Below the pieces are notes generated by a model. It had not been told where the DNA came from. It saw only the letters and a list, made by a program, of their open reading frames with translations, and ran no database searches. The position numbers were made by a program, and so were the translations under genes. A DNA stretch of 64,000 nucleotides, taken from assembly GCF_017302275.1 (NCBI RefSeq), contig NZ_JAFLDR010000005.1, forward strand, positions 62,001 through 126,000, written 5' to 3'. Source of the DNA: Sulfuritalea sp. (GTDB lineage Bacteria > Pseudomonadota > Gammaproteobacteria > Burkholderiales > Rhodocyclaceae). Positions 2,890 to 17,435 of the stretch are shown piece by piece. Positions within the stretch are counted from its first letter, which is position 1; the number at the start of each line of letters is the position of its first letter.

Positions 2890-2957
2890 GAAGTAGGCTT
2901 GCCATATATTGAGCGGTTGCGCGACTTCCAGTGCGGGTGCGTGTCGCGCCATGCAAG

Positions 2958-4544
2958 ATGACCATCAACAGTAACCACAGCTTCCTTGCGTTCGGCCGCG
3001 AAATCGAAAATGCGAAGCTTTGGCTCCAATCGAGGCTGTTTGCGGCCTGCGGTTATTCATCCGGGATGCTGGTCGATCGACTGATGCAACGACTGATTGA
3101 ACTCAGCCTGACTCCCTATGCCGTAGCGGTGATGGCGCTTTGCAGTACGGCAGCAGACAGCTTTCCATCTACCGGTTCGCGCATTCAGTGCGGACGTGCG
3201 TCCCTGGAACTGGGGACTGGCGCCGTTCGCGTTTCCTTGACGCAACTGCTGGCCAATCAGATGGATTTCCTGCTTCACTGGGGATTTTGTCTGGGGGCCA
3301 TCTTGTTCCCGACCAGAGCGGCTGCAACCCGTCAGCCTGCCGTCCTTGTGTTCGGAGTCGGGATGGAAAGCCTGTTCGCGAACGGGAGCGACGAAAGATT
3401 CGTAGCCTATTGCCGGCGCGGTCCGATTGAACCGCTTGCAAATGCGAAGCGGCTGTTGATTCAATGTTCGATCCGCGAGGCCGTGTCGACGCGCACCGAG
3501 TTTGCCTATTGCGCCCGGCCCCTGATCAGCCTCCTGCGTTGCTCGCGATTGGGGCTGTTTGCGAGGCTTGCCCTGGCGCAAAAGCACCTTGTGTTTTTGT
3601 TCCAGTATTTAGTCGCCGTCATTCGGTTACCCGCGCTCTCCCTGCTGGGCAAGGACTTCGCCTATAGCGCGATCTCATTTGGTCTTGATCGAATTGGCCT
3701 GATAGAGGCAATCGTTTTCACCACCTCCAACTACAACAGCCAGCCGCTCTGGGTCCGGGGATTGCCGAATACGAAGCTGCACCTGGTCTGGTACGCACAG
3801 AACTTCAAGCCCGTTAGCTACGCCGCAGATTCGGTGGGGTCAGAGATTCCCTGCGCGCGATGGGTTCGAGTCGATACGCATTGGGTGTGGACCCGGACTT
3901 TTGGCGACTATCTCAGGACATTGGGACACCGCGGAGCAATCGAAGTGGTGGGACCGATAGTCTGGTACCTGCCGGAATCCGGGACCCCGTCATCAAGCAG
4001 CATTGATATCGTCGTATTTGATATCTCGCCCTTTAGCGACGACGTTGCATTGCATGCGGGCGGATACATCTCCAACTACAATAATGTCGACAATCTGAGC
4101 GCGTTCATCGCCGATGTCACTGCTTTGCGGCCGAGGCTGGAAGCGATCCTGCAGAAGACGGTTTTGTTGCGCCTGAAGACCAAACGGGGCTACAACGCAA
4201 TTTACGACAAGACGTATTTCGACCACCTGGACCAACTGAATTCCTCGGGCGTCATTTCCCTTGTCGAACACTCAAGCAACATCTATTCATTGATATCCGG
4301 CAGCCATCTGGCTGTCGTATACCCTTTCAGTTCGCCGGCATACATAGCCGATGCACTGGATGTCCCGGCGATCTACTACGATCCGACGCAGTCCATTGTT
4401 GAACAGAATTTCGGCGATGCTCCTTCGCTGGTCCGTTTCGCCAACTGCCCGGCGGACCTGCTGAACACTGCAGTCGTCGCGATACGGGAGGTCCTGGCGA
4501 AACGTGCGATGCAATATGCTGCCGCGGGCGATCATGGAAAATGA
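2958..4544 (+). CDS. Large polysaccharide-biosynthesis protein with PFTS-like motif, putative glycosyltransferase
   Basis: About 528 residues with no domain I can place firmly. The second half carries features of the PFTS-motif polysaccharide proteins: HLVWYAQNFKPVSY, then VDTHWVWTRTFGDYL, and near residue 455 VVYPFSSPAYIADALDVP, where PFSS stands in for PFTS. The final fold resembles the nucleotide-sugar-binding half of GT-B enzymes, so it may be an unclassified glycosyltransferase acting in the cytoplasm. The frame is open from a GTG at 2931; ATG 2958 is preferred but has no strong ribosome-binding site. The gap from the preceding gene (~70 nt) is larger than usual in this operon. Confidence 0.6.
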   Translation: MTINSNHSFLAFGREIENAKLWLQSRLFAACGYSSGMLVDRLMQRLIELSLTPYAVAVMALCSTAADSFPSTGSRIQCGRASLELGTGAVRVSLTQLLANQMDFLLHWGFCLGAILFPTRAAATRQPAVLVFGVGMESLFANGSDERFVAYCRRGPIEPLANAKRLLIQCSIREAVSTRTEFAYCARPLISLLRCSRLGLFARLALAQKHLVFLFQYLVAVIRLPALSLLGKDFAYSAISFGLDRIGLIEAIVFTTSNYNSQPLWVRGLPNTKLHLVWYAQNFKPVSYAADSVGSEIPCARWVRVDTHWVWTRTFGDYLRTLGHRGAIEVVGPIVWYLPESGTPSSSSIDIVVFDISPFSDDVALHAGGYISNYNNVDNLSAFIADVTALRPRLEAILQKTVLLRLKTKRGYNAIYDKTYFDHLDQLNSSGVISLVEHSSNIYSLISGSHLAVVYPFSSPAYIADALDVPAIYYDPTQSIVEQNFGDAPSLVRFANCPADLLNTAVVAIREVLAKRAMQYAAAGDHGK

Positions 4545-5283
4545 AGGGCAGCGGCTTGCCGCAAGTCGCATGACTGCATCATCAGGGACCGATCCGAAAC
4601 CGAATGTCGTGGTCTGTCCAACAGGCAGGGAGTGGGCTGAGATGGCTGCGGCAGTGATAGGCTCTTCCGTTGACGCGGTGATTGCTGGAAGGGGCGCCTG
4701 TTCCCTGATGCTCACCGGGGGGAAAACCGCCGAGGGCCTTTATAATCATTGGTTCAGGTTCTCGCTACTGCCAAGGCAGGGCATGCGGTACTTTTTCGGG
4801 GATGAGCGTTGCGTCCCCCCGGAGCACAGGGATAGCAACTTCGGCTTGGTAATGAGGACATTGTTCGCAAACGAGAGACCTTCCGGTGCCTGCGTGAGCC
4901 GTATGGAGGCCGACGATCCGGATCGGGAGGCCGCAGCGACGAGATACGAGGCATTGCTTCCAGAACAGATTGACATCCTTTTGTTGGGAATGGGAACTGA
5001 CGGCCATGTCGCTTCCCTGTTTCCCTATAGCGAGGCCTTGCGTACGACGGAGCGGACCGTGCTGCCGGTGCAGGGCCCGGATGCAGGGCATCCGCGCTTG
5101 AGCATTACGGGCAGGGTCGTCGCCAATGCCGAAACCGTCTTCCTCTTGGCGACTGGCGAAGACAAGGGTCGGGTGCTGGCCGAGGCAATGAAATCCCCGC
5201 GTGACGTCATGTCGCTGCCGGTGCGCATGGCATTGAACGCGACCTGGTTGCTGGATGAGGCGGCTGCAGGGCAGATCCGCTAG
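4534..5283 (+). CDS. 6-phosphogluconolactonase-like protein (glucosamine-6-phosphate isomerase superfamily)
   Basis: About 249 residues from ATG 4534; GTG 4504, ATG 4516 and ATG 4570 are alternatives and none has a clear Shine-Dalgarno. It shows LTGGKTAEGLY, the FGDERCVPPEHRDSN block and LLLGMGTDGHVASLFP, all characteristic of DevB/Pgl lactonases. The family hydrolyses 6-phosphogluconolactone; superfamily relatives isomerise amino-sugar phosphates. It overlaps the end of the PFTS-like gene by 11 nt and sits inside a glycan operon, so a housekeeping pentose-phosphate role is not certain. A lactonase paired with the PtmF/PtmA-like dehydrogenases, which could generate lactone intermediates, is a reasonable inference. 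Confidence 0.75.
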   Translation: MENEGQRLAASRMTASSGTDPKPNVVVCPTGREWAEMAAAVIGSSVDAVIAGRGACSLMLTGGKTAEGLYNHWFRFSLLPRQGMRYFFGDERCVPPEHRDSNFGLVMRTLFANERPSGACVSRMEADDPDREAAATRYEALLPEQIDILLLGMGTDGHVASLFPYSEALRTTERTVLPVQGPDAGHPRLSITGRVVANAETVFLLATGEDKGRVLAEAMKSPRDVMSLPVRMALNATWLLDEAAAGQIR

Positions 5284-6148
5284 AAAATTCTCCAAAAGGC
5301 GCGACAGTTTGAAAAAGCTCATCAAGGCGGGCATCAAACAATTGATCGATTGGTCGGTTGCCCTCATGGGGAAGACGATTCCCGGGCGCTACGTCTATGC
5401 CCGGATTGTCGGCGAAGCGATGAATCGAACTCGGAGGTCAAGCCATCAGGGTACGAGCCTGAGTTTTGCCGTACCCAATGCGCTCAATCAATACCGCGTC
5501 GAGACCTTTTCCACAAAGGAACCGGAGACACTGGAATGGATTGACGGAATTCCCGAGGGTTCGGTACTCTGGGATATCGGGGCGAACGTCGGCCTTTACG
5601 CGTGCTATGCGGCCAAGCACCGCAATTGCAGGGTTTTTGCTTTCGAGCCGTCGGTCTTCAACCTTGAACTGCTGGCGCGCAATGTGTTCTTGAACGGCTT
5701 GACCGAACGGATAACTCTGGTACCGTTGCCGCTGTCAGACGGACTGGCGGTCAGTACGCTTAACATGACCACCACCGAATGGGGCGGCGCGTTGTCGAGT
5801 TTTGGTCAGGAGTACGGTCATGACGGACAGGTCATGCACCAGGTATTCAAGTTCCCGACCATAGGTCTTTCGATGGTCGATGCGGTCGAACTGCTCAGGA
5901 TTCCCCACCCAGACTATATAAAGATGGACGTCGACGGCATCGAACACCTGATTCTCAAGGGCGGGCTACCTTTGCTGAAGACCATAAGAGGCATCCTGAT
6001 CGAGATAAATGACAGCTTCAAGGCGCAGGCCAATGATTCGAGCATGTACTTGCAGCAGTCGGGGCTTTCGCTGCGCGAAAAGCGGCATGCGGAAGAGTTT
6101 GACACCGGCATGGCCCAATACACCTTCAATCAGATATGGGTCAGATAG
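5255..6148 (+). CDS. FkbM-family SAM-dependent methyltransferase
   Basis: Up to 297 residues. The SAM site is VLWDIGANVGLYACYAA (residues ~107-123) followed by VFAFEPSVFNLELLARN and the catalytic-region motif YIKMDVDGIEHLILKGG, all hallmarks of FkbM O-methyltransferases. Such genes commonly sit in polysaccharide loci and methylate sugars. ATG 5255 would overlap the lactonase-like gene by 29 nt. An in-frame TTG at 5309 follows AAAAGGCG and gives an N-terminus beginning MKKLIKAGIKQ, which looks more natural, so the true start may be 5309. Acceptor sugar unknown. Confidence 0.85.
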   Translation: MRRLQGRSARKFSKRRDSLKKLIKAGIKQLIDWSVALMGKTIPGRYVYARIVGEAMNRTRRSSHQGTSLSFAVPNALNQYRVETFSTKEPETLEWIDGIPEGSVLWDIGANVGLYACYAAKHRNCRVFAFEPSVFNLELLARNVFLNGLTERITLVPLPLSDGLAVSTLNMTTTEWGGALSSFGQEYGHDGQVMHQVFKFPTIGLSMVDAVELLRIPHPDYIKMDVDGIEHLILKGGLPLLKTIRGILIEINDSFKAQANDSSMYLQQSGLSLREKRHAEEFDTGMAQYTFNQIWVR

Positions 6149-6186
6149 CGATGCCCCTGTCTCCATCGGACGCGAATTGAGGAATC

Positions 6187-7233
6187 ATGCCTAGCGTGAA
6201 AGTTGGAATCGCAGGGTTCGGAGTGGTGGGCAGACGGCGCAGGGACTGCATCGAGCGGCACCCGCACATGCAGGTGGTGGCAGTCTGCGACCAGGCCTTT
6301 GACGGGGAAGGAATGCTTCCCGACGGCACCCGGTATTTCCGGGACTACCGCCGTTTGCTGGAGGAAGGCCTTGATGCGCTGATTGTCTGCCTGACGAATG
6401 ACATCGCCGCAGACGTGACGATCGCCGGCCTCGAATCCGGCTTGCACGTATTTTGCGAAAAGCCACCCGGGCGCAGCGTCGAGGACATCGTACGGGTCAT
6501 CGCGCACGAGCGCCGCCATCCCTCGCTGAAGCTGATGTATGGCTTCAATCACCGTTACCACGAGTCGGTGCAGGAGTCCCTCGCCATCATGCGTTCCGGG
6601 GAACTCGGCAAGGTCATTAATATGCGTGGCGTGTATGGCAAGGCCAAGCTCATCACCTTCAACCAGCCGGATTGGCGCACTAAACGTGAAATTGCCGGGG
6701 GTGGCGTACTGCTTGACCAAGGGATTCACATGGTCGACCTGATGCGGCTGCTGGGCGGCGATTTCACCGAGGTGCACAGCTTCATTTCAAACAGCCATTG
6801 GGGCTACGACGTTGAAGACAATGCCTACGCACTGATGCGAACCGCCGAAGGCGTGGTCGGCATGCTCAATTCCTCTGCCACCCAGTGGCGCCACCGCTTC
6901 CATCTCGACATCAATCTGGACCGGGGCAGCCTGATTCTTGGCGGCATTCTTTCCGGTACAAAGAGCTATGGCGCAGAGACATTGACCGTGGTACGCGCCG
7001 ACCCCGACAATGATCGCGGCGATCCGAAGGAGGTCATCACCCGCTACAACCGGGACCCGTCCTGGGATGAGGAGATGCGAGCATTTGCCGACTCCGTGTT
7101 GAACGGCAAGCCGGTACAAAGCGGTACTTCGGACGATGCGCTGCGTACCATGCAGCTGGTCTTCAAGATCTATCACGCCGATTCAGCCTGGCGCAAGGCA
7201 TACAACATTCAAGACCCTGACATCCATGAATAA
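6187..7233 (+). CDS. Gfo/Idh/MocA-family oxidoreductase, first gene of the cyclase cassette
   Basis: A 348-residue NAD(P)-dependent sugar or cyclitol oxidoreductase. Motifs are GIAGFGVVGRRR near the N-terminus, FCEKPPGR (EKP motif, residues ~95-97) and GGGVLLDQGIHMVDLMR in the C-terminal domain, the Gly-rich/His motif typical of the family. GAGGAATC precedes the ATG. The stop overlaps the next ATG (7226) by 8 nt. It begins a seven-gene run with gaps of at most ~20 nt up to 12785, which suggests one pathway. Inositol-type dehydrogenases belong to this family, consistent with a cyclitol hypothesis but not proof. Confidence 0.87.
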   Translation: MPSVKVGIAGFGVVGRRRRDCIERHPHMQVVAVCDQAFDGEGMLPDGTRYFRDYRRLLEEGLDALIVCLTNDIAADVTIAGLESGLHVFCEKPPGRSVEDIVRVIAHERRHPSLKLMYGFNHRYHESVQESLAIMRSGELGKVINMRGVYGKAKLITFNQPDWRTKREIAGGGVLLDQGIHMVDLMRLLGGDFTEVHSFISNSHWGYDVEDNAYALMRTAEGVVGMLNSSATQWRHRFHLDINLDRGSLILGGILSGTKSYGAETLTVVRADPDNDRGDPKEVITRYNRDPSWDEEMRAFADSVLNGKPVQSGTSDDALRTMQLVFKIYHADSAWRKAYNIQDPDIHE

Positions 7234-7837
7234 CATCGACCGCTTCTTTTCTCCCGACCCCGCTGCATTCGCCGACGCCTACATCAAGTACCTGCAATCG
7301 GTTCTGGAAGGCATCGAGGTCAAGGAAATTGCGCGCTTCGTCGAAACCCTGTTGGAGGCACGCGAGCGCGGATCCACCGTTTTCTTCGTCGGCAACGGTG
7401 GCAGTGCCGCGACGGCAAGCCACTTCGCCAACGACCTGGCGTTCGGTACCAACGACTATGAGAAGCCATTTCGCGTCATCAGCCTGACCGACAACGTTCC
7501 GGTACTCACGGCCTTGGGCAACGATCTCGGCTACGAGGAGATCTTCGTTCGGCAACTGCGGGTATTGGGTCGCCCGGGCGACGTACTGGTTGGCATTTCG
7601 GCCTCCGGCAATTCGCCAAACCTGGTCCGGACATTCGACTACGCAAACTCGGCGGGGATCAAAACCGTCGCGATTACCGCCTTTGACGGTGGCAGGATCA
7701 AGGCGATGGCGAGCGAGGGAATCCACGTGCCGACCGGGCCAAAGGAGTACGGGCCTGCCGAGGATGCGCACATGGTTCTTGATCATCTGGTCGGTGCCTA
7801 TTTGATGCGGTATGTGAAAGCAGGCGGAAAGCCCTGA
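7226..7837 (+). CDS. SIS-domain sugar-phosphate isomerase (GmhA-like)
   Basis: A 203-residue single SIS-domain protein. FFVGNGGSAATASHFANDL (residues ~53-71) is the sugar-phosphate loop shared with phosphoheptose isomerase GmhA and DiaA; VLVGISASGNSPNLVR is the second phosphate-binding motif, and AEDAHMVLDHLVG matches the C-terminal helix. GmhA converts sedoheptulose 7-phosphate to a heptose 7-phosphate. The ATG lies 8 nt inside the preceding gene; the next gene starts 2 nt after the stop. Beside an AroB-like cyclase, a ketose phosphate substrate is attractive but inferred. Confidence 0.85.
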   Translation: MNNIDRFFSPDPAAFADAYIKYLQSVLEGIEVKEIARFVETLLEARERGSTVFFVGNGGSAATASHFANDLAFGTNDYEKPFRVISLTDNVPVLTALGNDLGYEEIFVRQLRVLGRPGDVLVGISASGNSPNLVRTFDYANSAGIKTVAITAFDGGRIKAMASEGIHVPTGPKEYGPAEDAHMVLDHLVGAYLMRYVKAGGKP

Positions 7838-7839
7838 CC

Positions 7840-8556
7840 ATGCGTTTTGCCGGCAAGAAGGTTTTCGTCACAGGGGCCTCGCGGGGGATAGGAAACGCAA
7901 TCGCCGCGATGTTCCGAACCGAGGGCGCGACGGTGACGGGAACCCGCACCGCGCTGGGTGCGGAGGGCAAGGATGCTTGTGACGAATGGGTGCTGGCCGA
8001 TTTCTCGGACCTTGCACAGATTCGCAGCTGCGCCGAATTCGTGCGACAGACGGAACCCGATGTGCTCGTGAACAACGCAGGAATTAACCGAATCGCTCCA
8101 TTCGCCGAAATCGATCCGGACGATTTCCAGCGTATCCAGCAAGTGAACGTGTTTGCCCCTTTCCTTCTATGTCGGTCGGCGCTTCCGGCCATGGCTCGCA
8201 AGCGCTGGGGCCGGATAGTGAACGTCTCGTCCATCTGGGGAAAGATCAGCAAGGCGCAGCGTGCATCCTATTCCGCCAGCAAGTTCGCCCTGGACGGAAT
8301 GACCGTGGCGCTCGCCGCCGAGTACTCCGCCCATGGCGTGCTTGCCAATTGCGTGGCGCCAGGCTTCATCGATACCGACCTGACGCGGCGGGTGCTCGGG
8401 GACAAAGGAATCCAGGCTCTGATTCCAGCGATACCGTCGCAACGCCTTGGCCGGATAGACGAGATTGCCCGGACGGTTCTTTGGCTTTCGAGCGAGGAAA
8501 ACACCTACCTGACCGGCCAGAACATCGCCGTGGATGGGGGTTTCAGTCGTGTCTGA
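7840..8556 (+). CDS. SDR-family oxidoreductase (FabG-like fold)
   Basis: A 238-residue classical SDR with VTGASRGIGNAIA (cofactor loop), LVNNAGIN, catalytic Ser in VNVSSIWG, and Tyr-x3-Lys in ASYSASKFALDG. The C-terminal YLTGQNIAVDGGFSRV is canonical. It resembles FabG-type reductases, but between a SIS isomerase and a sugar-phosphate cyclase it most likely oxidises or reduces a sugar or cyclitol rather than an acyl-ACP. It starts 2 nt after the upstream stop, and the following gene's probable GTG start overlaps its end. Confidence 0.87.
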   Translation: MRFAGKKVFVTGASRGIGNAIAAMFRTEGATVTGTRTALGAEGKDACDEWVLADFSDLAQIRSCAEFVRQTEPDVLVNNAGINRIAPFAEIDPDDFQRIQQVNVFAPFLLCRSALPAMARKRWGRIVNVSSIWGKISKAQRASYSASKFALDGMTVALAAEYSAHGVLANCVAPGFIDTDLTRRVLGDKGIQALIPAIPSQRLGRIDEIARTVLWLSSEENTYLTGQNIAVDGGFSRV

Positions 8557-9619
8557 AGGCCTGGTAATCCAGTCCCACAAAGGGCCGTATGCCGTGTCGT
8601 TCGCCGGCGACCTCCTGCGCGATCCGGCCTGCCTGTTGCAGGGGGAGCCGCATTTCCTGGTCGATGCCACCGTGGCCCGCCTCTACGCCCACCCCCTGGA
8701 ACGAATACTCGCCCATCCCAATCTGATCCTGATCGAGGCGAAGGAAGAAAACAAGTCGCTGCAAAGCATCATTCCGGTGTTCGAGCAACTGGTCGGCAAC
8801 AAGGTGCGGCGGAACCACGTGCTGGTGGCAATCGGCGGAGGCATCGTCCAGGACATCACCTGCTTCATCGCCAGCACGCTGTTGCGCGGATTGCCTTGGC
8901 GCTTCGTTCCCACGACCCTGTTGTCACAGGCGGATTCCTGCATCGGGTCGAAGAGTTCGATCAATCTCGGCGATGCCAAGAACATCCTCGGGACCTTTAA
9001 TCCGCCGCAGCAGATATTTGTCAATCCAGGATTCCTCGACACGCTGGATTCCCGCGAAATCCGGTCCGGAGTCGGGGAAATAATCAAGGTTCACGCAATT
9101 GATGGCGCCGCTTCGTTCGACCGCCTGGCGGCCGACTTCGACCGCCTGTTTGCGGACCGAGACTTGTTGGGCAAGTACATCCGATCGGCGCTGCTGATCA
9201 AGCAGCGTTTCATCGAAGAGGACGAGTTCGACCAGGGGATACGCAATATCTTCAATTACGGGCACAGCTTCGGCCACGCCATCGAGTCAGCCACCGATTA
9301 CGCGGTGCCGCACGGAATCGCTGTGACCATGGGCATGGACATGGCCAATCATGTCGCCACGGCACGGGGCTTGTTGCCGGCCAGTCACTTTGCACGAATG
9401 CATTCAACGCTGCGCATGAACTACGGCGACTTTTCCGCCACGCCGATTCCCCTGGCTTCGCTTCTGTCCGCCCTGATGAAGGACAAAAAGAACACCAGCA
9501 CCAGGCTGGGACTGATTCTGCCGGTGGGCGAGAGCGCCGCCATCCAGCGAGTTGAGGTCCCGCCGGATGGTGCCTTTCATGAACAATGCAAGAGCTTTCT
9601 GGGAGAGCTTGGCGCATGA
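8549..9619 (+). CDS. AroB-like sugar-phosphate cyclase (3-dehydroquinate synthase superfamily)
   Basis: About 356 residues from GTG 8549 (ATG 8534 is an alternative). It has the NAD loop VAIGGGIVQDITCF, PTTLLSQADSCIGSKSSIN, KNILGTFNPP, the metal Glu in GVGEIIK, an EDEFDQGIRNIFN segment keeping the DHQS Asp-Glu and Arg/Asn, and both metal His residues in NYGHSFGHAIE and PHGIAV. The core is therefore complete. It differs from housekeeping AroB at signature spots: GGGIVQD for GGGVxGD, GSK for GGK, HGIAV for HGEAV. That, and the operon, argue for another sugar-phosphate cyclase (2-epi-5-epi-valiolone or deoxy-scyllo-inosose synthase type). The product cannot be decided by eye. Confidence 0.85.
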   Translation: MSEGLVIQSHKGPYAVSFAGDLLRDPACLLQGEPHFLVDATVARLYAHPLERILAHPNLILIEAKEENKSLQSIIPVFEQLVGNKVRRNHVLVAIGGGIVQDITCFIASTLLRGLPWRFVPTTLLSQADSCIGSKSSINLGDAKNILGTFNPPQQIFVNPGFLDTLDSREIRSGVGEIIKVHAIDGAASFDRLAADFDRLFADRDLLGKYIRSALLIKQRFIEEDEFDQGIRNIFNYGHSFGHAIESATDYAVPHGIAVTMGMDMANHVATARGLLPASHFARMHSTLRMNYGDFSATPIPLASLLSALMKDKKNTSTRLGLILPVGESAAIQRVEVPPDGAFHEQCKSFLGELGA

Positions 9620-10572
9620 GTCGAGAAATCAGGGTCGCGGTTTGCTCCCGTTCCTTTTCCGCCAACCCGGTTCTGCGTGCGGAATTGCTGGCGCGTTACC
9701 CGAACGTCACCTTCAATGATGCCGGCCTGCAACTTCGGGGTGACAGCCTGGTTGAATTCCTCAAAGGTCATGACAAGGCCATCACCGCCCTGGAAGTGGT
9801 CGATGACTCGGTACTGGCCAGACTTCCAGACCTCAAGGTGCTCAGCAAGTATGGCGTCGGCTTGGACATGATCGACATGGCGGCGATGCGTGCGCATGGC
9901 AAGCGGCTTGGATGGATGGGCGGCGTGAACCGGCGGTCGGTGTCCGAACTGGTGATTTCCTTCGCCATCGCGATGCTGCGCCACGTTCCGGCGGCCAACC
10001 GCGAGGTTCTTGCCGGAACCTGGCGCCAGCATGTCGGCGGACACCTTTCCGGGCGAACGGTCGGCATTATCGGCTGCGGAAATGTCGGCAAGGACCTCGT
10101 CCAGTTGCTGAAGCCCTTCGGGACTCTGGTCCTCGCCAACGACATTCGCGACTATCGGGAATTCTACGAGGCCCACGCCGTCAAGCCGGTGGCCCTGGAG
10201 GAACTCCTGGCGCAGTCCGACCTGGTGACCCTGCATGTGCCGCTGGATCAGAGCACACGCGGCATGCTCGACGAACGGCGGCTTTCGCTGATGAAGCCTT
10301 CCGCGGTGCTGATCAATCTTGCGCGCGGGGGGCTGGTTGACGAACTTGCGCTGAAGCGCATGCTGCAGGAGAAGCGATTGGCGGCGGCAGCTTTTGACGT
10401 ATTCGCCGTCGAACCGCCGCTGGATGCAGAACTTGTGTCGCTTCCGAATTTTCTCGCCACGCCCCACATTGGGGGCAGTGCCCGTGAGGCGATACTGGCC
10501 ATGGGACGCGCGGCAATCGCCGGACTCGACGACAACAGCATTCCGGTCGAGGCACAGTTCGGCCAGGAATAA
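9616..10572 (+). CDS. D-isomer 2-hydroxyacid dehydrogenase (phosphoglycerate-dehydrogenase-like)
   Basis: A 318-residue two-domain enzyme from ATG 9616, which overlaps the cyclase stop as ATGA. It carries the NAD motif GIIGCGNVGKDLVQLL, HVPLDQSTRGMLD, the catalytic-Arg segment INLARGGLVDE and the catalytic-His segment TPHIGGSAREAI. It lacks the C-terminal ACT-type extension of long SerA proteins, so it is the short form. In this cassette it probably oxidises a hydroxy-acid or sugar-acid intermediate rather than serving serine synthesis; the HisC-like aminotransferase follows 18 nt downstream, a dehydrogenase-then-transaminase order. Substrate unknown. Confidence 0.85.
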   Translation: MSREIRVAVCSRSFSANPVLRAELLARYPNVTFNDAGLQLRGDSLVEFLKGHDKAITALEVVDDSVLARLPDLKVLSKYGVGLDMIDMAAMRAHGKRLGWMGGVNRRSVSELVISFAIAMLRHVPAANREVLAGTWRQHVGGHLSGRTVGIIGCGNVGKDLVQLLKPFGTLVLANDIRDYREFYEAHAVKPVALEELLAQSDLVTLHVPLDQSTRGMLDERRLSLMKPSAVLINLARGGLVDELALKRMLQEKRLAAAAFDVFAVEPPLDAELVSLPNFLATPHIGGSAREAILAMGRAAIAGLDDNSIPVEAQFGQE

Positions 10573-10590
10573 TCCGGCACGAAGGCGCGC

Positions 10591-11685
10591 ATGAGTATAA
10601 GACCCCGACGTTCCCTGTTGAACCCCGCCCTGCAGCGTCCCAGCGCGCTCGGTTCGGCACCGCGTGATCCCGGCCGCCTGTGGCTGGACAAGAACGAGAA
10701 TCTCGACGAGGAGCTGGAGGCCGTATTGCATGGCGTTCTGCTCGCGCTGCCAACCCGGGCCCTGAATACCTATCCGGAAGCGGGCGAAGTCTATCGCAAG
10801 CTCGCCCGGTGGCTTGGCATCAATCCGGAACATCTGCTTCTGACGCCGGGCAGCGATGGGGCCATCCGCCTCGTGTTCGAGGCCTTCGTCGAGGAGGGCG
10901 ATGCCGTGGTCCACACCTCGCCGACCTTCGCCATGTACCCGGTCTACAGCCAGATGTTCGGTGCGGATGCCCGGACGCTGGAGTACGCGAGAACCGAGGC
11001 TGGACCTTTTCTTGACGCAGGCGCAATCATCGCAGCCGTGCGGAAAATCAGGCCGAAGCTGCTTTGCCTGCCCAATCCGGACAGCCCGACCGGTACCACG
11101 CTGGCACCGGAAGCCCTGCGCGATGTGCTCGCGGCGTGCGAGGATTCCGGAACCGTATTGCTGCTGGACGAGGCCTATCATCCATTCCATGAGTGGACCG
11201 CTGTCCCATGGGTCACGAGTTCCAGGAATCTGGTGGTCGCGAGGACCTTTGCCAAGGCATGGGGCGCCGCCGGGCTGAGGATCGGCTACGCCGTTGCCCA
11301 TCCTGAAACGATAGCCCTGCTGCACAAGATGAGGCCGATGTACGAAGTCAGCACGGTCGCCATCGAGTTCATGTCCGGGATGCTGGACCGCTCCGCGGAT
11401 ATGCTGAAGTCCGTGGCCAGAATTCGGGAGGGCAAGCACTACTTTGTCGAAGAAATGCAGGCGCTCGGTTTCGCCGTATTGCCGACGGCGGGCAACTTTC
11501 TGCATGTCGCCTTCGGCGCGAACTCGCAGGCAATTCATGCCGCACTGTCGTCGAGAGTGTATTACCGTGCGACATTCGATACCCCCAGCCTGGCAGGCTA
11601 CAGCAGGTTCTCGGTGGCACCCCGGCCGGTCATGGAAATAGTGGCCGGTTTAATCAGGCAGGCAGTTGTGGAGAGCAGGCGATGA
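10591..11685 (+). CDS. PLP-dependent aminotransferase, histidinol-phosphate aminotransferase-like
   Basis: A 364-residue fold-type I aminotransferase. Motifs: LTPGSDGAIRLVFEAF near residues 89-104, LCLPNPDSPTGTTL, LLLDEAYHPF (Asp contacting the PLP pyridine nitrogen) and RTFAKAWGAAGLRIGYA with the Schiff-base Lys. It looks like HisC or CobD relatives, but the operon holds no his genes. The ATG follows AAGG. It ends ATGA-overlapped with the next oxidoreductase. The inferred role is amination of a keto sugar or keto-cyclitol phosphate made by the upstream dehydrogenases. Confidence 0.86.
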   Translation: MSIRPRRSLLNPALQRPSALGSAPRDPGRLWLDKNENLDEELEAVLHGVLLALPTRALNTYPEAGEVYRKLARWLGINPEHLLLTPGSDGAIRLVFEAFVEEGDAVVHTSPTFAMYPVYSQMFGADARTLEYARTEAGPFLDAGAIIAAVRKIRPKLLCLPNPDSPTGTTLAPEALRDVLAACEDSGTVLLLDEAYHPFHEWTAVPWVTSSRNLVVARTFAKAWGAAGLRIGYAVAHPETIALLHKMRPMYEVSTVAIEFMSGMLDRSADMLKSVARIREGKHYFVEEMQALGFAVLPTAGNFLHVAFGANSQAIHAALSSRVYYRATFDTPSLAGYSRFSVAPRPVMEIVAGLIRQAVVESRR

Positions 11686-12785
11686 AGGATAGTTTGGTCA
11701 AGGTTGCAGTTATCGGCTGCGGTCGTGTTTCGGGTCATCACTGCCGGTCGATCGCGGAAACCGATGGCGTCGAACTGGTGGCGATCTGCGATCTGGCGAT
11801 CGAAAAGGCCAATGTATATCGCGACCAGTTCGGCGCCAGGGCCTATGACAACTATCACCGCATGCTGCTGGAGAATCCCGAGATCAATACGGTCGCCATC
11901 GTCACACCCTCGGGCATGCACCATGAACATGCGCTGGACATCATTGCGAGATACCGGAAGAACATCATCGTCGAGAAGCCGACCTTCATGAAACCGTCGC
12001 AGGTGGCGGACGCCTATGCCAAGGCGGAATCCGCCGGTGTTGAGATATTCGCGGTGTTCCAGAACAGGCACAACCTGGCGGTGAAGCGTGTGCTGCAGGG
12101 ATTGACCCGGGGTGAACTCGGCAAGCTGCGCTCGGTGGCGGTTCGCGTTCGCTGGTGCCGTCCCCAGCGTTACTATGACCTGGCGCCATGGCGTGGCACC
12201 TTCGCCATGGATGGCGGATGCCTGACCAACCAGGGGATACACCATATCGACTTGTTGCGACGCCTGGGTGGCGAGGTCAGCCGGGTTTGCAGCACGCACC
12301 GGACACTTGGCGCCGATATCGAGGTCGAGGATACCGCTACCGCAGCGATCGAGTTCGAAAGCGGCGCGATCGGCGCGCTCGAGGTAACTACCGCCGCCCG
12401 CCCGATAGACTACGAGGCCAGCCTGTCGCTGGTTTGCGAGAACGGACTGGCGCAGATCGGCGGCATTGCGGTAAACGAGTTGCAGATATACACCCCCGAT
12501 CCGGCGGCCTGCGCGGCAAACTCAGAGGACTTTTCGGGGAACGTCTACGGCCACGGTCACGTGAAGATATACGAGGAAATCCTGGCGCACTTCAAGGGGG
12601 AGCAGAAGTTCCCGGTTTCCTACGAAGATACGCTGCGCACGATCCAGCTCCTGAACTCGTTCTACCGGGCGGACGAGAGCAGAGGGTGGGTGGACGTTGC
12701 CAAGGCCGGCGACAGCATTCGCCTGGGCCGCGAAGACGAGCGTCTGGCCGACATCTATCGCACCGTCGTGCCGTCGGGCATTTGA
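11682..12785 (+). CDS. Gfo/Idh/MocA-family oxidoreductase, last gene of the cyclase cassette
   Basis: A 367-residue NAD(P)-dependent oxidoreductase with VAVIGCGRVSGHHC (nucleotide loop), VEKPTFMKPS (EKP motif), APWRGTFAMDGGCLTNQGIHHIDLLRRLGG and a VEDTATA segment typical of amino-sugar or keto-sugar oxidoreductases such as WlbA. Those relatives oxidise C-3 of UDP-sugars ahead of transamination, which fits the neighbouring aminotransferase. The start overlaps the aminotransferase stop by 4 nt. It is distinct in sequence from the first Gfo/Idh/MocA gene at 6187, so two different oxidations are likely. Confidence 0.88.
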   Translation: MKDSLVKVAVIGCGRVSGHHCRSIAETDGVELVAICDLAIEKANVYRDQFGARAYDNYHRMLLENPEINTVAIVTPSGMHHEHALDIIARYRKNIIVEKPTFMKPSQVADAYAKAESAGVEIFAVFQNRHNLAVKRVLQGLTRGELGKLRSVAVRVRWCRPQRYYDLAPWRGTFAMDGGCLTNQGIHHIDLLRRLGGEVSRVCSTHRTLGADIEVEDTATAAIEFESGAIGALEVTTAARPIDYEASLSLVCENGLAQIGGIAVNELQIYTPDPAACAANSEDFSGNVYGHGHVKIYEEILAHFKGEQKFPVSYEDTLRTIQLLNSFYRADESRGWVDVAKAGDSIRLGREDERLADIYRTVVPSGI

Positions 12786-12837: not shown

Positions 12838-13806
12838 ATGGCAACGGACCAGATACTGAGGGCAGACCGGATCAAGCCGGATTTCGAGGGGCTGAAAAGC
12901 GCATGGGAGGCCATGCTCAAAAAGTACTACCTGGGCGCCAACGAATTGAATCCGGCCTACACGCTGGCAGTGCCCTGCCCGTACTGCAATTCGACCCTCA
13001 TCGAGCAGTCGTTCAAGCTGAAGGGTTTCTGGCACCGGACCTGCGCGGAATGCAAGACCCTTTACGTCAGTCCCCGCCTTTCGGATGCTTGTATCGAGGA
13101 ACTGTACTGCGACGAGTACTACAGCGAAATGTACGGCCGCTCCATGCTTCCCGTATTCGAGCAGCGCAAGCAATTGATCGGCCACCGCAAGTTTGCCCAG
13201 ACCGTTGCCCGCTGGGGAGGGAGCGGACGAGGTCGCGTGCTGGACATCGGCGCCGGCATCGGCGAGGTTCCGGACGTGTTCCGGGACGAGGGCTGGCTTT
13301 CCCATGTGATCGAGATGAATCCGGTGGCAGTGGAATGGCTGCACAGCCGCGGTCACGAAGAGGTATTCCATGGCTCCCTTGACGGCTACGCGACGGACCA
13401 CCGCTTCGACATCATCATGGCGTGGGGCGTGGTGGAACACGTGGTGGATCCCGGCGCGTTTCTGAGACGGGTCCATGAGCTCCTTGTTCCCGGCGGGCTT
13501 TTTGTATCGGAGGTGCCGCACGGACAATGCTTGCTGGTGGACGTTGCCCGCAAGACGGGAATGGACCCAAAGCGAATCCTCATGGGGGAGCAGCACATTG
13601 TGCTCTACTCGACCGGTGCCTACGCAATGCTGCACGAGAGGAACGGTTTCGAAAAAGTACACCTGCAGACGAACGGGCTCGACTGCGACACGATCCTGAA
13701 GGAGAACGGGGCGGATCTGCCGGATGGAGTCCTCGCGGCCATCCAGGAGTGTGTTGACGAGAAATTGTATGGAGATCTTCTGCGCGGGTTCTGGCGGCGG
13801 CCGTGA
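12838..13806 (+). CDS. Class I SAM methyltransferase with N-terminal zinc-ribbon-like cysteines
   Basis: A 322-residue protein from ATG 12838, preceded by AAGGAC. The N-terminal part has CPYCNS and CAEC pairs, a zinc-ribbon-like Cys4 arrangement ending in LYVSPRL. Then follows the methyltransferase core: VLDIGAGIGEVPDVF (motif I), a DGYATD acidic region and FDIIMAWGVVEHVVDPGAFL (motif IV). This architecture is typical of methyltransferases in O-antigen and capsule loci. Acceptor unknown. It is 52 nt downstream of the cyclase cassette and may be cotranscribed. Confidence 0.85.
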   Translation: MATDQILRADRIKPDFEGLKSAWEAMLKKYYLGANELNPAYTLAVPCPYCNSTLIEQSFKLKGFWHRTCAECKTLYVSPRLSDACIEELYCDEYYSEMYGRSMLPVFEQRKQLIGHRKFAQTVARWGGSGRGRVLDIGAGIGEVPDVFRDEGWLSHVIEMNPVAVEWLHSRGHEEVFHGSLDGYATDHRFDIIMAWGVVEHVVDPGAFLRRVHELLVPGGLFVSEVPHGQCLLVDVARKTGMDPKRILMGEQHIVLYSTGAYAMLHERNGFEKVHLQTNGLDCDTILKENGADLPDGVLAAIQECVDEKLYGDLLRGFWRRP

Positions 13807-13915: not shown

Positions 13916-14686
13916 ATGAAAACCATAGGCATTGTCCCCGCCCGCATGGCGGCGTCGCGTTTCCCCGGCAAGCCCCTGTACCCGATTCACGGCCGTCCGA
14001 TGCTGGAACACGTAATGCTGCGGGCCAGGATGTACCAGGGTTGGGACCAGTTGGTGCTGGCCACCTGCGATCGCGAGATCGAGCAGTTCGCCAACGACAA
14101 AGGCTTCCCCGTGATCATGACGGGCGCACATCACACCCGGGCGCTGGACCGGGTTGCGGAGGCGGCCGAGCGCCTGGAGGGGGGCGTTGCCGATGATGAT
14201 ATTGTCGTCTGCGTGCAGGGCGACGAGCCCATGATGCGCCCGGACATGATGGACGCCGTGGTTGCGCCCCTGCGGGCGGACCCATCGATTCCCTGCACGG
14301 TCCTCGCGATGCACATCACCGAGGAGTTCATTTGGCGCAATCCGGACACGGTCAAGATCATTCACAACGACGCGGGCGAGGTGCTGTATACGTCGCGGGC
14401 CCCCGTGCCGTATTGCAAGGGAAGCTTCACACCCGCGCACCTGGCGCGACGGATCTACGGCATTTTTGCCTTTCGCTGGAAGTACCTCAAGGCTTTCTCT
14501 ATCCATCCCGAAACACGGCTCGAGCAACTGGAGGCCTGCGACAGCAACCGGATACTGGATATGCCGTTCCGGCAATACATAGCGCCGTATCCTTATGTCG
14601 AGTCCTTCTCCGTCGACAGTCCACAGGACATCGATTTGGTCGAGCGTCACATGGCTGCCGACAAATATTGGGCCTTGTACAAGTAG
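13916..14686 (+). CDS. KdsB-like cytidylyltransferase, divergent
   Basis: A 256-residue nucleotidyltransferase of the 3-deoxy-manno-octulosonate cytidylyltransferase family. The CTP loop is IVPARMAASRFPGKPL (residues ~6-21); VQGDEPMM and TSRAPVPYC match conserved KdsB blocks, and the C-terminal SFSVDSPQDIDLVE resembles the KdsB GVDTPEDLERV end. In place of the usual HxSGTER segment it has HHTRALDRVAEA, so substrate preference may differ from Kdo. A housekeeping kdsB is expected elsewhere; this one probably activates a capsule or O-antigen acidic sugar with CTP. Confidence 0.82.
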   Translation: MKTIGIVPARMAASRFPGKPLYPIHGRPMLEHVMLRARMYQGWDQLVLATCDREIEQFANDKGFPVIMTGAHHTRALDRVAEAAERLEGGVADDDIVVCVQGDEPMMRPDMMDAVVAPLRADPSIPCTVLAMHITEEFIWRNPDTVKIIHNDAGEVLYTSRAPVPYCKGSFTPAHLARRIYGIFAFRWKYLKAFSIHPETRLEQLEACDSNRILDMPFRQYIAPYPYVESFSVDSPQDIDLVERHMAADKYWALYK

Positions 14687-14723
14687 GCTGACGAAGGCAT
14701 CAGTGACCGCCACGTATCCACCG

Positions 14724-15485
14724 ATGAAAAGCAACATTGCCTATCAGACCGACCAGCTTGCACGCTATTTCAAGTCGCATCGCATTGCCTGGGAGCAGTT
14801 CTATGACTCCGAACGCGCAATCATCGGTCAGTTGGCGCCGGGCAGGCATCATCGCATCCTTGACATAGGATGCGGATGCGGTGGATTGGGCCTTGCATTG
14901 CGCGATCGCTTCGGAGTAGAGCGCTATACGGGCGTAGAGATCAATGCGCTTGCTGTCGAGGCGGGGCGGATGATGAACCCCGCAGCGGAAATTTACTGTG
15001 GCGATATCCTGGAACTCAGCCGTGGCGTGCTGCGCGACACCTCCTACGACGTGGTTTTTTCCTTGAGTTGCGTGGACTGGAACGTGCAGTTTTCAGACAT
15101 GCTGGCCACCGCCTGGAGCCACGTCGCCGAGGGCGGGAGTCTGGTCGCGACTTTCCGTCTCACAATCGGCGAGGGCTGCGGCGACATGGAAAGGTCGTAC
15201 CAGTACATCAACTGCGACGGAAGCCTGGAGGGGGAGCGCGCCGCTTATGTCGTGCTGAACGCCGGGGAGCTTATCCATATATTGCGCAGCTTCAACCCGA
15301 CATCGATTCACGCTGTCGGCTACTGGGGCTCGCCTTCGGCTACGGCGGTTACGCCCTTTCAGAAACTGTGTTTTGCAGCCTTTTCCATCCGGAAACGGGC
15401 AGATGGCAATGCCGCAGCATCGGCACTGGTGCTGGATCTTCCGGCAGAAATAGTGGATTCGATTGGTGCAGGGCCGGCGGCCTGA
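14724..15485 (+). CDS. Class I SAM-dependent methyltransferase
   Basis: A 253-residue protein from ATG 14724 (in-frame GTG 14703 possible). It has ILDIGCGCGGLGLAL (motif I, near residue 48), YTGVEINALAVEAGR (motif II, acidic residue in VEIN) and DVVFSLSCVDWNVQFSDML (motif IV). The remainder is unlike any specific family I can name. Position between KdsB-like and LIC13510-like genes suggests methylation of a polysaccharide residue or carrier-linked sugar. Confidence 0.8.
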   Translation: MKSNIAYQTDQLARYFKSHRIAWEQFYDSERAIIGQLAPGRHHRILDIGCGCGGLGLALRDRFGVERYTGVEINALAVEAGRMMNPAAEIYCGDILELSRGVLRDTSYDVVFSLSCVDWNVQFSDMLATAWSHVAEGGSLVATFRLTIGEGCGDMERSYQYINCDGSLEGERAAYVVLNAGELIHILRSFNPTSIHAVGYWGSPSATAVTPFQKLCFAAFSIRKRADGNAAASALVLDLPAEIVDSIGAGPAA

Positions 15486-15557
15486 TCGCGGTTGTTGCTT
15501 TCGTTCGGGTGGTGCCGAAAGCTCGATACCCGGCATTCCCGGCAGGGGTTCAGTGCG

Positions 15558-17435
15558 GTGAGCGTTCCAGTCGTCGTCTGGGCCCTTCCAGGCGACCCGC
15601 CTGCGGGCATTGGTGATGTGCTTCATTGGCAGGGCTATGCCCAAGGTGTCGGGACGCAGTCGGTGCCGCGCTACCTCGAGGCAAACGCCCAGCGTCTGCG
15701 GGCGGCATATCTCAGGTTTATCCATGAGTTGGGTGAGCGACGAGTAAGCGGCAAGTCCATCGCCGGACATCTCGATTTCGGCGACGGTTTCAGCTTCTGG
15801 TGGATGACACGCCTGGCGGAAAAAAGTCCCTTCAAGTCGCCGCGGCTCTACGATTGCCTGCGGCTGATGGCGCTGGAGGAAATGTTGATCGAATGCCGGC
15901 CGTCAGGACTTATTCTTTACTGTGCGGAACGGGATCTCTCGGAGGCAATCGGAAACCTTTGCAACAAGTTGGGGGTTGGCTTCGCGAGGCATCCGGCCGG
16001 CCGGGAAAAAGGCAAATGGTCACTCCGTGCAATTTATTCGTCATTGCCGCAGGTGGTTCAAGGTCTCCTCAGTCTGAGGCATCTGGCGAGCAACTGGTCA
16101 TTGCGCAACCTGGAACGACCGCATTGGTTCTCCGATCAGAAGGCGATCTTTTTCTGCTCGTATTTCTTTGATCTGGACGTTGCCGCCTGCGGTGCAGGGC
16201 AGTTTCATTCGAACCAGTGGGGAAGCATGCCAGACTACCTCAAGCAAAGCGGGCGACATGCGAACTGGATCCACCACTATTTGCGCAGTCCCGATGGCGC
16301 CGATGATGGAACGAGAGCGAAGTGGCTGAATCTGTTCAATCGCGATGCCGTCAATCAGGGGTGCCACAGCCTTCTGGAAAGCTATTTGTCCTGGGGTATC
16401 GCCGGCCGGGCTCTGTGCAAGTGGTTCCACCTCTTCGCGATTTCGCTTCGTTTGCGCAATGTTGCCGGGGCTTTCACGCCAGAAGGTTCGGCTGCCAGTC
16501 TGTGGCCCTTGCTGAGGACCGACTGGTGGGCCTCATTGCGAGGCCCCGCGGCATTCGGCAACTGTCTGTGGGTCGAGTTGTTCGATGCGGCATTCAGGGA
16601 CATTCCGCACCAAGAAACTGGCCTGTACCTTTGGGAAAATCAGGGTTGGGAATGCGCAATGCTGAACGCCTGGCGCCGGCATGCCCATGGCCGGATCATC
16701 GGCGTGCCGCACGCCACCGTCGTGTTCTGGCACTTGAACAATTTTGATGATCCGCGCACCCTTGGGTTGCGTACGGAATACCCGAAACCCTTGCCGGATC
16801 ATCTGGCCGTCAATGGTCCGATGGCACGGAAAGCGTTTGCCGATGCCGGCGGTGCCTTGCCAGGCCGGTTTGTCGACGTCGAGGCATTGCGCTTTCAATA
16901 TCTGGCACAGCCCGGAACCGGAAGTTCCCGTCGGAACGGCCTCGTTGTTGCGGACAACGGGAGGCAAATGAAGGTTTTGCTTCTAGGCGATTTCACCGAA
17001 AGGCAAACGCTGAAGATGTTTTCCTGCATGGACGAAGCGCTGCGCCAGTGCGGCACTGAGGTCTCCATTGTCTTCAAGCCACACCCGGTGAGCCGGATCC
17101 GGCAGCAGGACTATCCGTCTCTTCCATTTGAGATGTCCCGTGGCGCGCTGGCCGAGGTGTTGCAGAGTTGCGACCTGGTGTTTTCGAGCAACACCACGTC
17201 CGCCGGCCTGGAGGCCTTGCTCGCCGGGTTACCAGTGCTCGTTTTTCTGGATGACGGGGATTTCAACCACAGCCCGCTGCGTGGAGTGGAAGGCGTAAGG
17301 TTTGTGGGCACCCCAACGGATCTGGCAACGGCCCTGGACACGGCTCGGCATCCGACGACTGTTCCGGCACCGCATGAGTTTTTCTGGCTGGACCAGGGAA
17401 TGCCGCGGTGGGACAGAGTCCTTGCGACAGAGTGA
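15558..17435 (+). CDS. Large surface-carbohydrate biosynthesis protein (LIC13510-like), putative glycosyltransferase
   Basis: About 625 residues from GTG 15558, which follows AGGGG at good spacing; the frame is open from TTG 15492. The N-terminus VVVWALPGDPPAGIGDVLHW, the middle ETGLYLWENQGWECAMLNAW and RIIGVPHATVVFWHLN, and the end VFKPHPVSRI with SNTTSAGLEALLAGLPVLVF resemble surface-carbohydrate proteins first grouped from Leptospira O-antigen loci. The last ~150 residues look like the donor-binding half of a GT-B glycosyltransferase or CDP-glycerophosphotransferase-like fold. No membrane segments are evident. Activity is inferred only. Confidence 0.65.
   Translation: MSVPVVVWALPGDPPAGIGDVLHWQGYAQGVGTQSVPRYLEANAQRLRAAYLRFIHELGERRVSGKSIAGHLDFGDGFSFWWMTRLAEKSPFKSPRLYDCLRLMALEEMLIECRPSGLILYCAERDLSEAIGNLCNKLGVGFARHPAGREKGKWSLRAIYSSLPQVVQGLLSLRHLASNWSLRNLERPHWFSDQKAIFFCSYFFDLDVAACGAGQFHSNQWGSMPDYLKQSGRHANWIHHYLRSPDGADDGTRAKWLNLFNRDAVNQGCHSLLESYLSWGIAGRALCKWFHLFAISLRLRNVAGAFTPEGSAASLWPLLRTDWWASLRGPAAFGNCLWVELFDAAFRDIPHQETGLYLWENQGWECAMLNAWRRHAHGRIIGVPHATVVFWHLNNFDDPRTLGLRTEYPKPLPDHLAVNGPMARKAFADAGGALPGRFVDVEALRFQYLAQPGTGSSRRNGLVVADNGRQMKVLLLGDFTERQTLKMFSCMDEALRQCGTEVSIVFKPHPVSRIRQQDYPSLPFEMSRGALAEVLQSCDLVFSSNTTSAGLEALLAGLPVLVFLDDGDFNHSPLRGVEGVRFVGTPTDLATALDTARHPTTVPAPHEFFWLDQGMPRWDRVLATE

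Follow-up and report, generated by a model that had tools for sequence, protein, structure and literature searches.

A 64,000-nt stretch of DNA from Sulfuritalea sp. (Rhodocyclaceae; contig NZ_JAFLDR010000005.1, positions 62,001 to 126,000), referred to here as the window, carries a seven-gene cassette built around a sugar-phosphate cyclase of the NCBIfam family TIGR04425. The cassette is real, dedicated and recurring and, as far as our searches reach, uncharacterised. It may supply a surface polysaccharide with a carbocyclic, likely aminated, sugar-acid building block, a reading that we favour while giving it slightly less than an even chance. All seven open reading frames (ORFs) lie on the plus strand between 6187 and 12785 and encode, in order, a Gfo/Idh/MocA oxidoreductase (Gfo1), a GmhA-like phosphosugar isomerase (SIS), an SDR reductase, the cyclase, a PGDH-like dehydrogenase, a HisC-like aminotransferase and a second Gfo/Idh/MocA oxidoreductase (Gfo2). 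With the start codons assumed here, the successive junctions measure -8, +2, -23, -34, +18 and -4 nt. An earlier note on this DNA had described seven coupled genes of these families, and their order, Pfam families and tight spacing (-34 to +18 nt) have been confirmed.

In the proposed pathway, the ketose phosphate that SIS would convert to an aldose phosphate is most likely sedoheptulose 7-phosphate. Gfo1 would oxidise C1 of the aldose phosphate, giving a lactone whose ring opens spontaneously or through the 6-phosphogluconolactonase encoded upstream, and the PGDH-like enzyme would turn the 2-hydroxy acid into a 2-keto-aldonate phosphate, an analogue of 3-deoxy-D-arabino-heptulosonate 7-phosphate (DAHP) that retains the 3-hydroxyl. 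The cyclase would act on this predicted substrate by dehydroquinate synthase (DHQS) chemistry, with loss of phosphate, to give a six-membered ring bearing a tertiary hydroxy-carboxylate. The SDR, encoded by a gene that overlaps that of the cyclase, would reduce the ring ketone. Gfo2 would then oxidise a hydroxyl and HisC would transaminate, in the manner of WbpB/WbpE, after which the KdsB-like enzyme would form a cytidine monophosphate (CMP) derivative for transfer by the GT-B-like protein. To close a six-membered carbocycle, DHQS chemistry requires seven carbons in the substrate, with a keto group at C2 and a phosphate at C7, which suggests sedoheptulose 7-phosphate as the sugar that enters the route, not as the compound on which the cyclase itself acts. 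A seven-carbon starting sugar is also consistent with SIS, because SIS is GmhA-like. The logic of oxidation, cyclisation and transamination put forward in the earlier note is supported.

A broader proposal is appreciably less likely. The cyclase could represent a new branch whose 2-keto-aldonate 7-phosphate substrates come from oxidation (by way of an isomerase, an aldose dehydrogenase and a 2-hydroxyacid dehydrogenase), not from DAHP synthase, and are closed to a hydroxylated dehydroquinate. With an amination or aldolase tail, this branch would yield a CMP-activated carbocyclic, ulosonic-acid-like surface residue in several phyla.

The seven genes recur in the same order in L034, the nearest named locus, from a Rhodocyclaceae metagenome-assembled genome (MAG; proteins 93–96% identical), and in L036 from an Undibacterium MAG (68–81% protein identity); in L131 they recur in a different order (46–67%). 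Here, L numbers denote loci and G numbers genomes. Because of this recurrence in L034, L036 and L131, the seven-gene set is not a chance grouping. The genes form three exchangeable modules: SIS-Gfo1-PGDH (module 1), SDR-cyclase (module 2) and a swappable tail, which here is HisC-Gfo2-KdsB-methyltransferase and elsewhere an HpaI aldolase. The coupling claimed for the cassette stands in that it recurs, but the idea of a single indivisible unit gives way to these modules.

The surroundings of the cyclase have been surveyed in 73 locus rows (72 scanned loci and L033, which lies on the same contig as L049), four of which (L096, L098, L101 and L104) resemble ordinary AroB. An acetolactate-synthase-type thiamine pyrophosphate (TPP) enzyme is found near the cyclase in 38 rows, Gfo1 in 23 and PGDH in 20, the last two counted above 200 bits on models built here. 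The TPP enzyme occurs together with Gfo1 or PGDH in none of the 73 rows. The SDR is common to both contexts; in 57 of the 68 loci counted, its end coincides with the cyclase start or lies close to it. The sister context (38 rows, e.g. L056, L057, L058, L061, L062 and L084) has an IlvB-type TPP enzyme, often accompanied by an HpcH/HpaI-like or HMGL-like protein, the SDR and a DegT aminotransferase, and spans many phyla; no pathway assigned to it was seen.

The link between Gfo1 and the cyclase has also been observed at the genome level. Gfo1 (E <= 1e-70) is present in 25/25 group-A cyclase genomes (L034–L055, L067, L099 and L100, with L067 included by tree position) and in 0/12 group-B genomes, a subset of the 38 rows of the TPP context; this search did not extend to the Firmicutes loci L060, L064 and L073, where Gfo1 is close by. 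Six of the group-A genomes (L045, L050, L052, L053, L054 and L067) serve as an independent test because their fetched locus does not contain Gfo1 (for L054 it spans only 3.4 kb), and all six have it elsewhere in the genome. L067 comes from the cultivated Insolitispirillum peregrinum DSM 11589, which carries the cyclase, Gfo1 and PGDH. In a sample of 398 genomes of the phylum, drawn regardless of the cyclase, Gfo1 is present in nine and TIGR04425 in five, all five within the nine (Fisher 1.6e-9, or 6.9e-8 with the genome of the window removed). PGDH has been found at E <= 1e-70 in 24/25 group-A and 7/12 group-B genomes, and at E <= 1e-100 in 23/25 and 0/12. This contrast is less clean at the genome level because other 2-hydroxyacid dehydrogenases match too. 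In the Firmicutes loci L064 and L073, SIS, PGDH, Gfo1 and the cyclase occur together, but the tree places their cyclases on the TPP side.

Modules 1 and 2 could instead feed separate sugars of one polysaccharide, and be co-located only as such loci gather sugar genes. This explanation, which we consider unlikely, would account for module 1 occurring with HpaI and KdsB in loci that lack the cyclase (L133, L134 and L136), and for modules 1 and 2 lying on different contigs in G406, where L134 holds Gfo1-SIS-PGDH and L145 holds SDR-cyclase. It does not sit well with the distribution of Gfo1 over groups A and B, including the six genomes in which Gfo1 lies outside the fetched locus, nor with the 34-nt overlap of the cyclase and PGDH genes. 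Also, in Actinoplanes siamensis (L100), PGDH and a fused Gfo-SIS ORF adjoin the cyclase.

The Actinoplanes ORF encodes 536 aa with a Gfo domain (Pfam, 5–119) followed by an SIS domain (356–480), and is flanked directly by PGDH on one side and by a distant TIGR04425-like cyclase on the other. This single ORF suggests that the isomerase and Gfo1 catalyse consecutive steps, as in the proposed pathway. The same locus (4259–10906) has a HisC-like aminotransferase on the opposite strand and ABC-transporter-like ORFs nearby. In L137 (5285–6439), cytidylyltransferase and cupin domains share one ORF beside PGDH, cyclase, SDR, Gfo1 and SIS. SIS of the window scores 111 bits (111.4 in the genome search) against a cut-off of 209.45 for the gmhA equivalog TIGR00441, and is best regarded as a relative of GmhA outside GmhA membership; the best match to this model in the genome, at 197.9 bits, likewise falls under the cut-off. 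The PGDH-like protein is below the PGDH equivalog (198.6 bits against 454).

Four of the nine Gfo1 genomes in the sample lack a TIGR04425 protein over the cut-off (G450, G509, G544 and G501). G501 (L138) has a weak Gfo1 match and no partner genes, and was left out of the cyclase-less cassette loci. In three Gfo1-PGDH loci of genomes without a detected cyclase, a phosphatase adjoins PGDH: one of the inositol-monophosphatase type in L133 (4-nt overlap with PGDH) and L136, and a HAD phosphatase in L132. With the same phosphatase models, no match adjoins PGDH or the cassette in cyclase-bearing group-A loci; a weak HAD match in L046 (16.8–23 bits), which is separated from the cyclase by about 9.5 kb, has not been counted as an operon phosphatase. 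The 20 kb of L134 yielded no such HAD phosphatase or inositol-monophosphatase; its genome, G406, has the SDR-cyclase on another contig. As stated in an excerpt of PMC7144000, the DHQS reaction itself expels phosphate, so an alternation of cyclase and phosphatase is expected if both use one phosphorylated intermediate. The two enzymes thus look like alternatives.

The cyclase passes TIGR04425 with 466.4 bits against a cut-off of 400 (466.1 in the genome search), and fails the aroB equivalog TIGR01357 with 265.3 bits against 305. A separate AroB is encoded on contig 2 of the genome and scores 173 bits on Pfam DHQ_synthase, against 118 for the cyclase. In a 113-sequence tree made by a quick method, the cyclase falls in a 72-row clade (Shimodaira-Hasegawa-like approximate likelihood ratio support 99) apart from known AroB; L005, L006 and L014 also lie inside this clade, yet are labelled class AroB from model matches only. 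The motifs GGGIVQD, GSK and HGIAV stand where AroB has GGGxVGD, GGK and HGEAV, the three departures named in the earlier note, Asp stands at the position of AroB's Glu260, and position 289 is changed to Ile. On sequence grounds, the cyclase is distinct from housekeeping AroB and, as noted, is not the only aroB-like gene of its genome. TIGR04425 is rare, with proteins over the cut-off in 2/369 genomes of the class and 5/398 of the phylum (the genome of the window counted in both), and at least two DHQ_synthase genes are present in 21 of the 24 cyclase-carrier genomes searched.

The cyclase could also be an additional dehydroquinate synthase that uses ordinary DAHP for a dehydroquinate- or quinate-derived decoration, an explanation that is rather improbable. 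It would fit the likeness of the cyclase to AroB in the substrate pocket. The score under the aroB cut-off (265 against 305 bits) speaks against it, and Gfo1, SIS and PGDH would be left unexplained despite the Gfo1 link. DAHP synthase was not noticed among the neighbouring genes, where no model search was aimed at it.

An excerpt of PMC6262012 lists 11 DAHP-pocket residues for the S. aureus DHQS, and the pocket columns were aligned to this list by motif and spacing. The cyclase keeps 11/11, compared with 9/11 in the inosose synthase 2d2x and 8/11 in the valiolone synthase 4p53. Positions 250, 268 and 275 are Lys, Asn and His in the window cyclase but Met, Asp and Pro in all four references of the valiolone type; positions 264 and 268 are Arg and Asn, against Gly/Ala and Glu in all three references for inosose synthase. 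The loci were gathered by searching for the patterns IEEDEFD and AIGGGIVQ, and therefore the Gln of GGGIVQD and Asp260 are partly built in, while Lys250, Arg264, Asn268 and His275 are not. The pocket residues favour a DAHP-like 2-keto acid over sedoheptulose 7-phosphate or glucose 6-phosphate as the compound that is cyclised directly.

The earlier note had pictured a product made from a ketose phosphate such as sedoheptulose 7-phosphate, and our substrate prediction for the cyclase departs from it. In a valiolone-type route, with sedoheptulose 7-phosphate as the direct substrate of the cyclase, a C7 cyclitol would be formed and then oxidised and aminated, and this sugar would serve, as it would in the pathway proposed here, as the one that enters. 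The probability of this route is, if anything, slightly lower than that of a second dehydroquinate synthase. The family has Lys, Asn and His at the three positions given above, the valiolone-type references form a separate clade (support 100) in the same tree, and a ketose isomerase consuming the substrate would make no sense. A route from glucose 6-phosphate through 2-deoxy-scyllo-inosose to an aminocyclitol is very improbable: it would suit an aminotransferase and inositol-dehydrogenase-like Gfo proteins, but the aminotransferase here is HisC-like, unlike the DegT-type inosose aminotransferases, the reference inosose synthases have Gly/Ala and Glu where the family has Arg and Asn, and they too form a separate clade (100).

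The tail supplies the amination step of the proposed pathway. The HisC-like protein is below the hisC equivalog (197.5 bits against 276.55). HisC, Gfo2, a distinct KdsB-like protein and a second methyltransferase-like protein (MT2) occur together in the window, L034, L036, L046, L048 and L131 (L038 is cut off after HisC). Gfo2 adjoins HisC in L034, L036, L046, L048, L131 and L139, and among the loci compared, relatives of MT2 occur solely in those that also carry HisC. An HpaI-type aldolase takes the place of the HisC tail in L035, L039, L040, L042, L043, L044, L047, L049, L051, L054, L055 and L099, and likewise in L133, L134 and L136; the HisC tail and the HpaI aldolase share none of the loci examined. 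A single clade for the HisC-type cyclases is rejected (approximately unbiased test, p 0.00012) and five changes are needed on the cyclase tree, whereas the five HisC-type KdsB proteins form one clade (99/100) in a KdsB tree that leaves out the KdsB of L131 and the other KdsB of the genome. Therefore, the tail has been swapped on at least two occasions, and the cytidylyltransferase travels with it. The KdsB-like protein of the window is below the kdsB equivalog TIGR00466 (134.4 bits against 155.2) and 35% identical to the other match of the genome. In 19/27 group-A loci, a KdsB- or NeuA-like protein is encoded no more than 10 kb away from the cyclase.

Several observations weigh against the proposed pathway. 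A number of cyclase loci have no SIS (e.g. L040, L043, L046, L048, L049 and L051), as judged from the loci only, their genomes not having been searched; a housekeeping isomerase could replace SIS there. The lactonase is present only in the window, L034 and L037 among the loci compared, the PGDH of distant loci is only 27–35% identical, and His occupies the K197 position in five group-A loci (L051–L055). Arg264 and Lys250 are presumably the residues that hold the carboxylate; a literature search for a link between these residues and dehydroquinate synthase found nothing. The phosphatase contrast comes from three loci of genomes that are 97, 78 and 71% complete, with L132 truncated where its contig stops, and from models built from few sequences.

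Other observations concern the tail. HisC-Gfo2-MT2 is present without the cyclase or Gfo1 in L139 (2250–13201), which also holds a PGDH relative, a HAD phosphatase, a cytidylyltransferase and a TIGR04326 glycosyltransferase; this set perhaps makes an amino-ulosonate without an aldolase. L140 has a weaker Gfo2 relative without HisC. It follows that amination is an add-on to the pathway core. KdsB and HpaI occur in the cyclase-less loci L133, L134 and L136, so that activation with CMP may involve a compound other than the cyclised product. It would also be unusual for a tertiary ring alcohol to accept CMP. In the HisC-type cassette, no aldolase and no other supplier of a classical 3-deoxy-ulosonate has been identified, the upstream NeuB belonging to a legionaminic-type set.

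Several known systems can be compared with the cassette. TIGR04425 is an NCBIfam hypothetical equivalog, "AroB-related putative sugar phosphate phospholyase (cyclizing)", whose NCBI entry gives no specific reaction; the window cyclase is a member, and the family is here resolved into two contexts (Gfo1-PGDH or TPP enzyme) with their partners. The cyclase differs from AroB in its motifs, Asp260, clade, score and status as a second copy, and resembles it in the complete DAHP pocket. It differs from the valiolone synthase ValA at pocket positions 250, 268 and 275 and from 2-deoxy-scyllo-inosose synthase at 264 and 268, both in clades of their own; the comparison with desmethyl-4-deoxygadusol synthase covered the fold alone. 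WbpB and WbpE are a 3-amino-sugar pair, in which a Gfo-family dehydrogenase and a pyridoxal phosphate (PLP) aminotransferase swap a hydroxyl for an amine. Here, too, a Gfo protein stands beside a PLP aminotransferase, although the latter is HisC-like, not DegT-like. CMP-ulosonate activation by KdsB and NeuA has its counterpart in the cytidylyltransferases near most group-A cyclases, that of the window being in its own clade.

The term TIGR04425 was not found in the open-licence PubMed Central (PMC) literature, and no description of the cassette was found for surface-glycan sugar-phosphate cyclases in the titles and abstract openings of the same literature. The earlier note knew of no named pathway with this exact set, and none has been seen, though the cyclase family had already been named by NCBI. 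If the proposed pathway is true, a dedicated, modular, exchangeable route to a carbocyclic sugar within surface-polysaccharide loci would add a class of surface residue, and the well-studied sugar-phosphate cyclase superfamily would gain a new type of substrate. To our knowledge, carbocyclic sugars are known chiefly from natural products. TIGR04425, so far a number without an assigned reaction, gains a testable function and named partner enzymes, and the substrate prediction is specific, testable and different from that made earlier.

The same-strand unit extends beyond 6187–12785 (Table 1), with the lactonase and an FkbM-type methyltransferase upstream, and the KdsB-like protein, two methyltransferases and the GT-B-like protein downstream. 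The seven genes described earlier are thus all present, but their boundary is too narrow, since the cytidylyltransferase linked to HisC-Gfo2 lies outside it and had gone unmentioned. The lactonase and FkbM genes share 29 nt, and the lactonase, inside this glycan operon, is the sole TIGR01198 match of the genome. The start of SIS was taken at 7226 (MNNIDRF-type, common to close relatives); the longest ORF opens at 7136.

Table 1. Genes of the cassette and the adjoining same-strand unit (window coordinates).
Feature	Position	Strand	Evidence
6-Phosphogluconolactonase, possible lactonase for Gfo1 product	4504..5283	+	TIGR01198 149.8 bits, cut-off 124.45
FkbM-type methyltransferase	5255..6148	+	TIGR01444 71.1 bits, cut-off 37.7
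Gfo1, Gfo/Idh/MocA oxidoreductase, module 1	6187..7233	+	Pfam
SIS, GmhA-like phosphosugar isomerase, module 1	7226..7837	+	Pfam SIS_2
SDR reductase, module 2	7840..8556	+	Pfam
TIGR04425 sugar-phosphate cyclase, module 2	8534..9619	+	TIGR04425 466.4 bits
PGDH-like D-2-hydroxyacid dehydrogenase, module 1	9586..10572	+	Pfam 2-Hacid_dh_C 179.6 bits
HisC-like PLP aminotransferase, tail module	10591..11685	+	Pfam Aminotran_1_2
Gfo2, Gfo/Idh/MocA oxidoreductase, tail module	11682..12785	+	Pfam; adjoins HisC in six other loci
S-adenosylmethionine (SAM) methyltransferase (MT1 type)	12838..13806	+	Pfam Methyltransf_23 73.4 bits
KdsB-like cytidylyltransferase, tail module	13916..14686	+	NF003952 205.5 bits, cut-off 193 (scored on ORF from 13724)
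MT2, SAM-methyltransferase-like protein, tail module; start codon uncertain	14595..15485	+	Relatives confined to HisC-bearing loci
GT-B-like glycosyltransferase, candidate transferase for product	15492..17435	+	

A legionaminic-acid-type gene set lies directly upstream, in the contig stretch L108 (10969–19231) and positions 1–2889 of the window. LegB (526.9 bits, cut-off 475), NeuB (485.7, 399.65) and NeuC (476.5, 235.9) are over their cut-offs, while the PseF-like and PtmA-like proteins score below theirs. The cassette therefore sits in a surface-glycan locus, as the earlier note had held, and given this upstream pathway the polymer probably also contains a nonulosonic acid. Positions 2931–4544 give a match of 87 bits to a PFTS polysaccharide biosynthesis family, below the cut-off of 100, with counterparts in L034, L036 and L037. 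Just downstream of the locus, an IS630 family transposase (247 bits, cut-off 100) is encoded on the minus strand at 18456–19493, a possible sign of cassette mobility.

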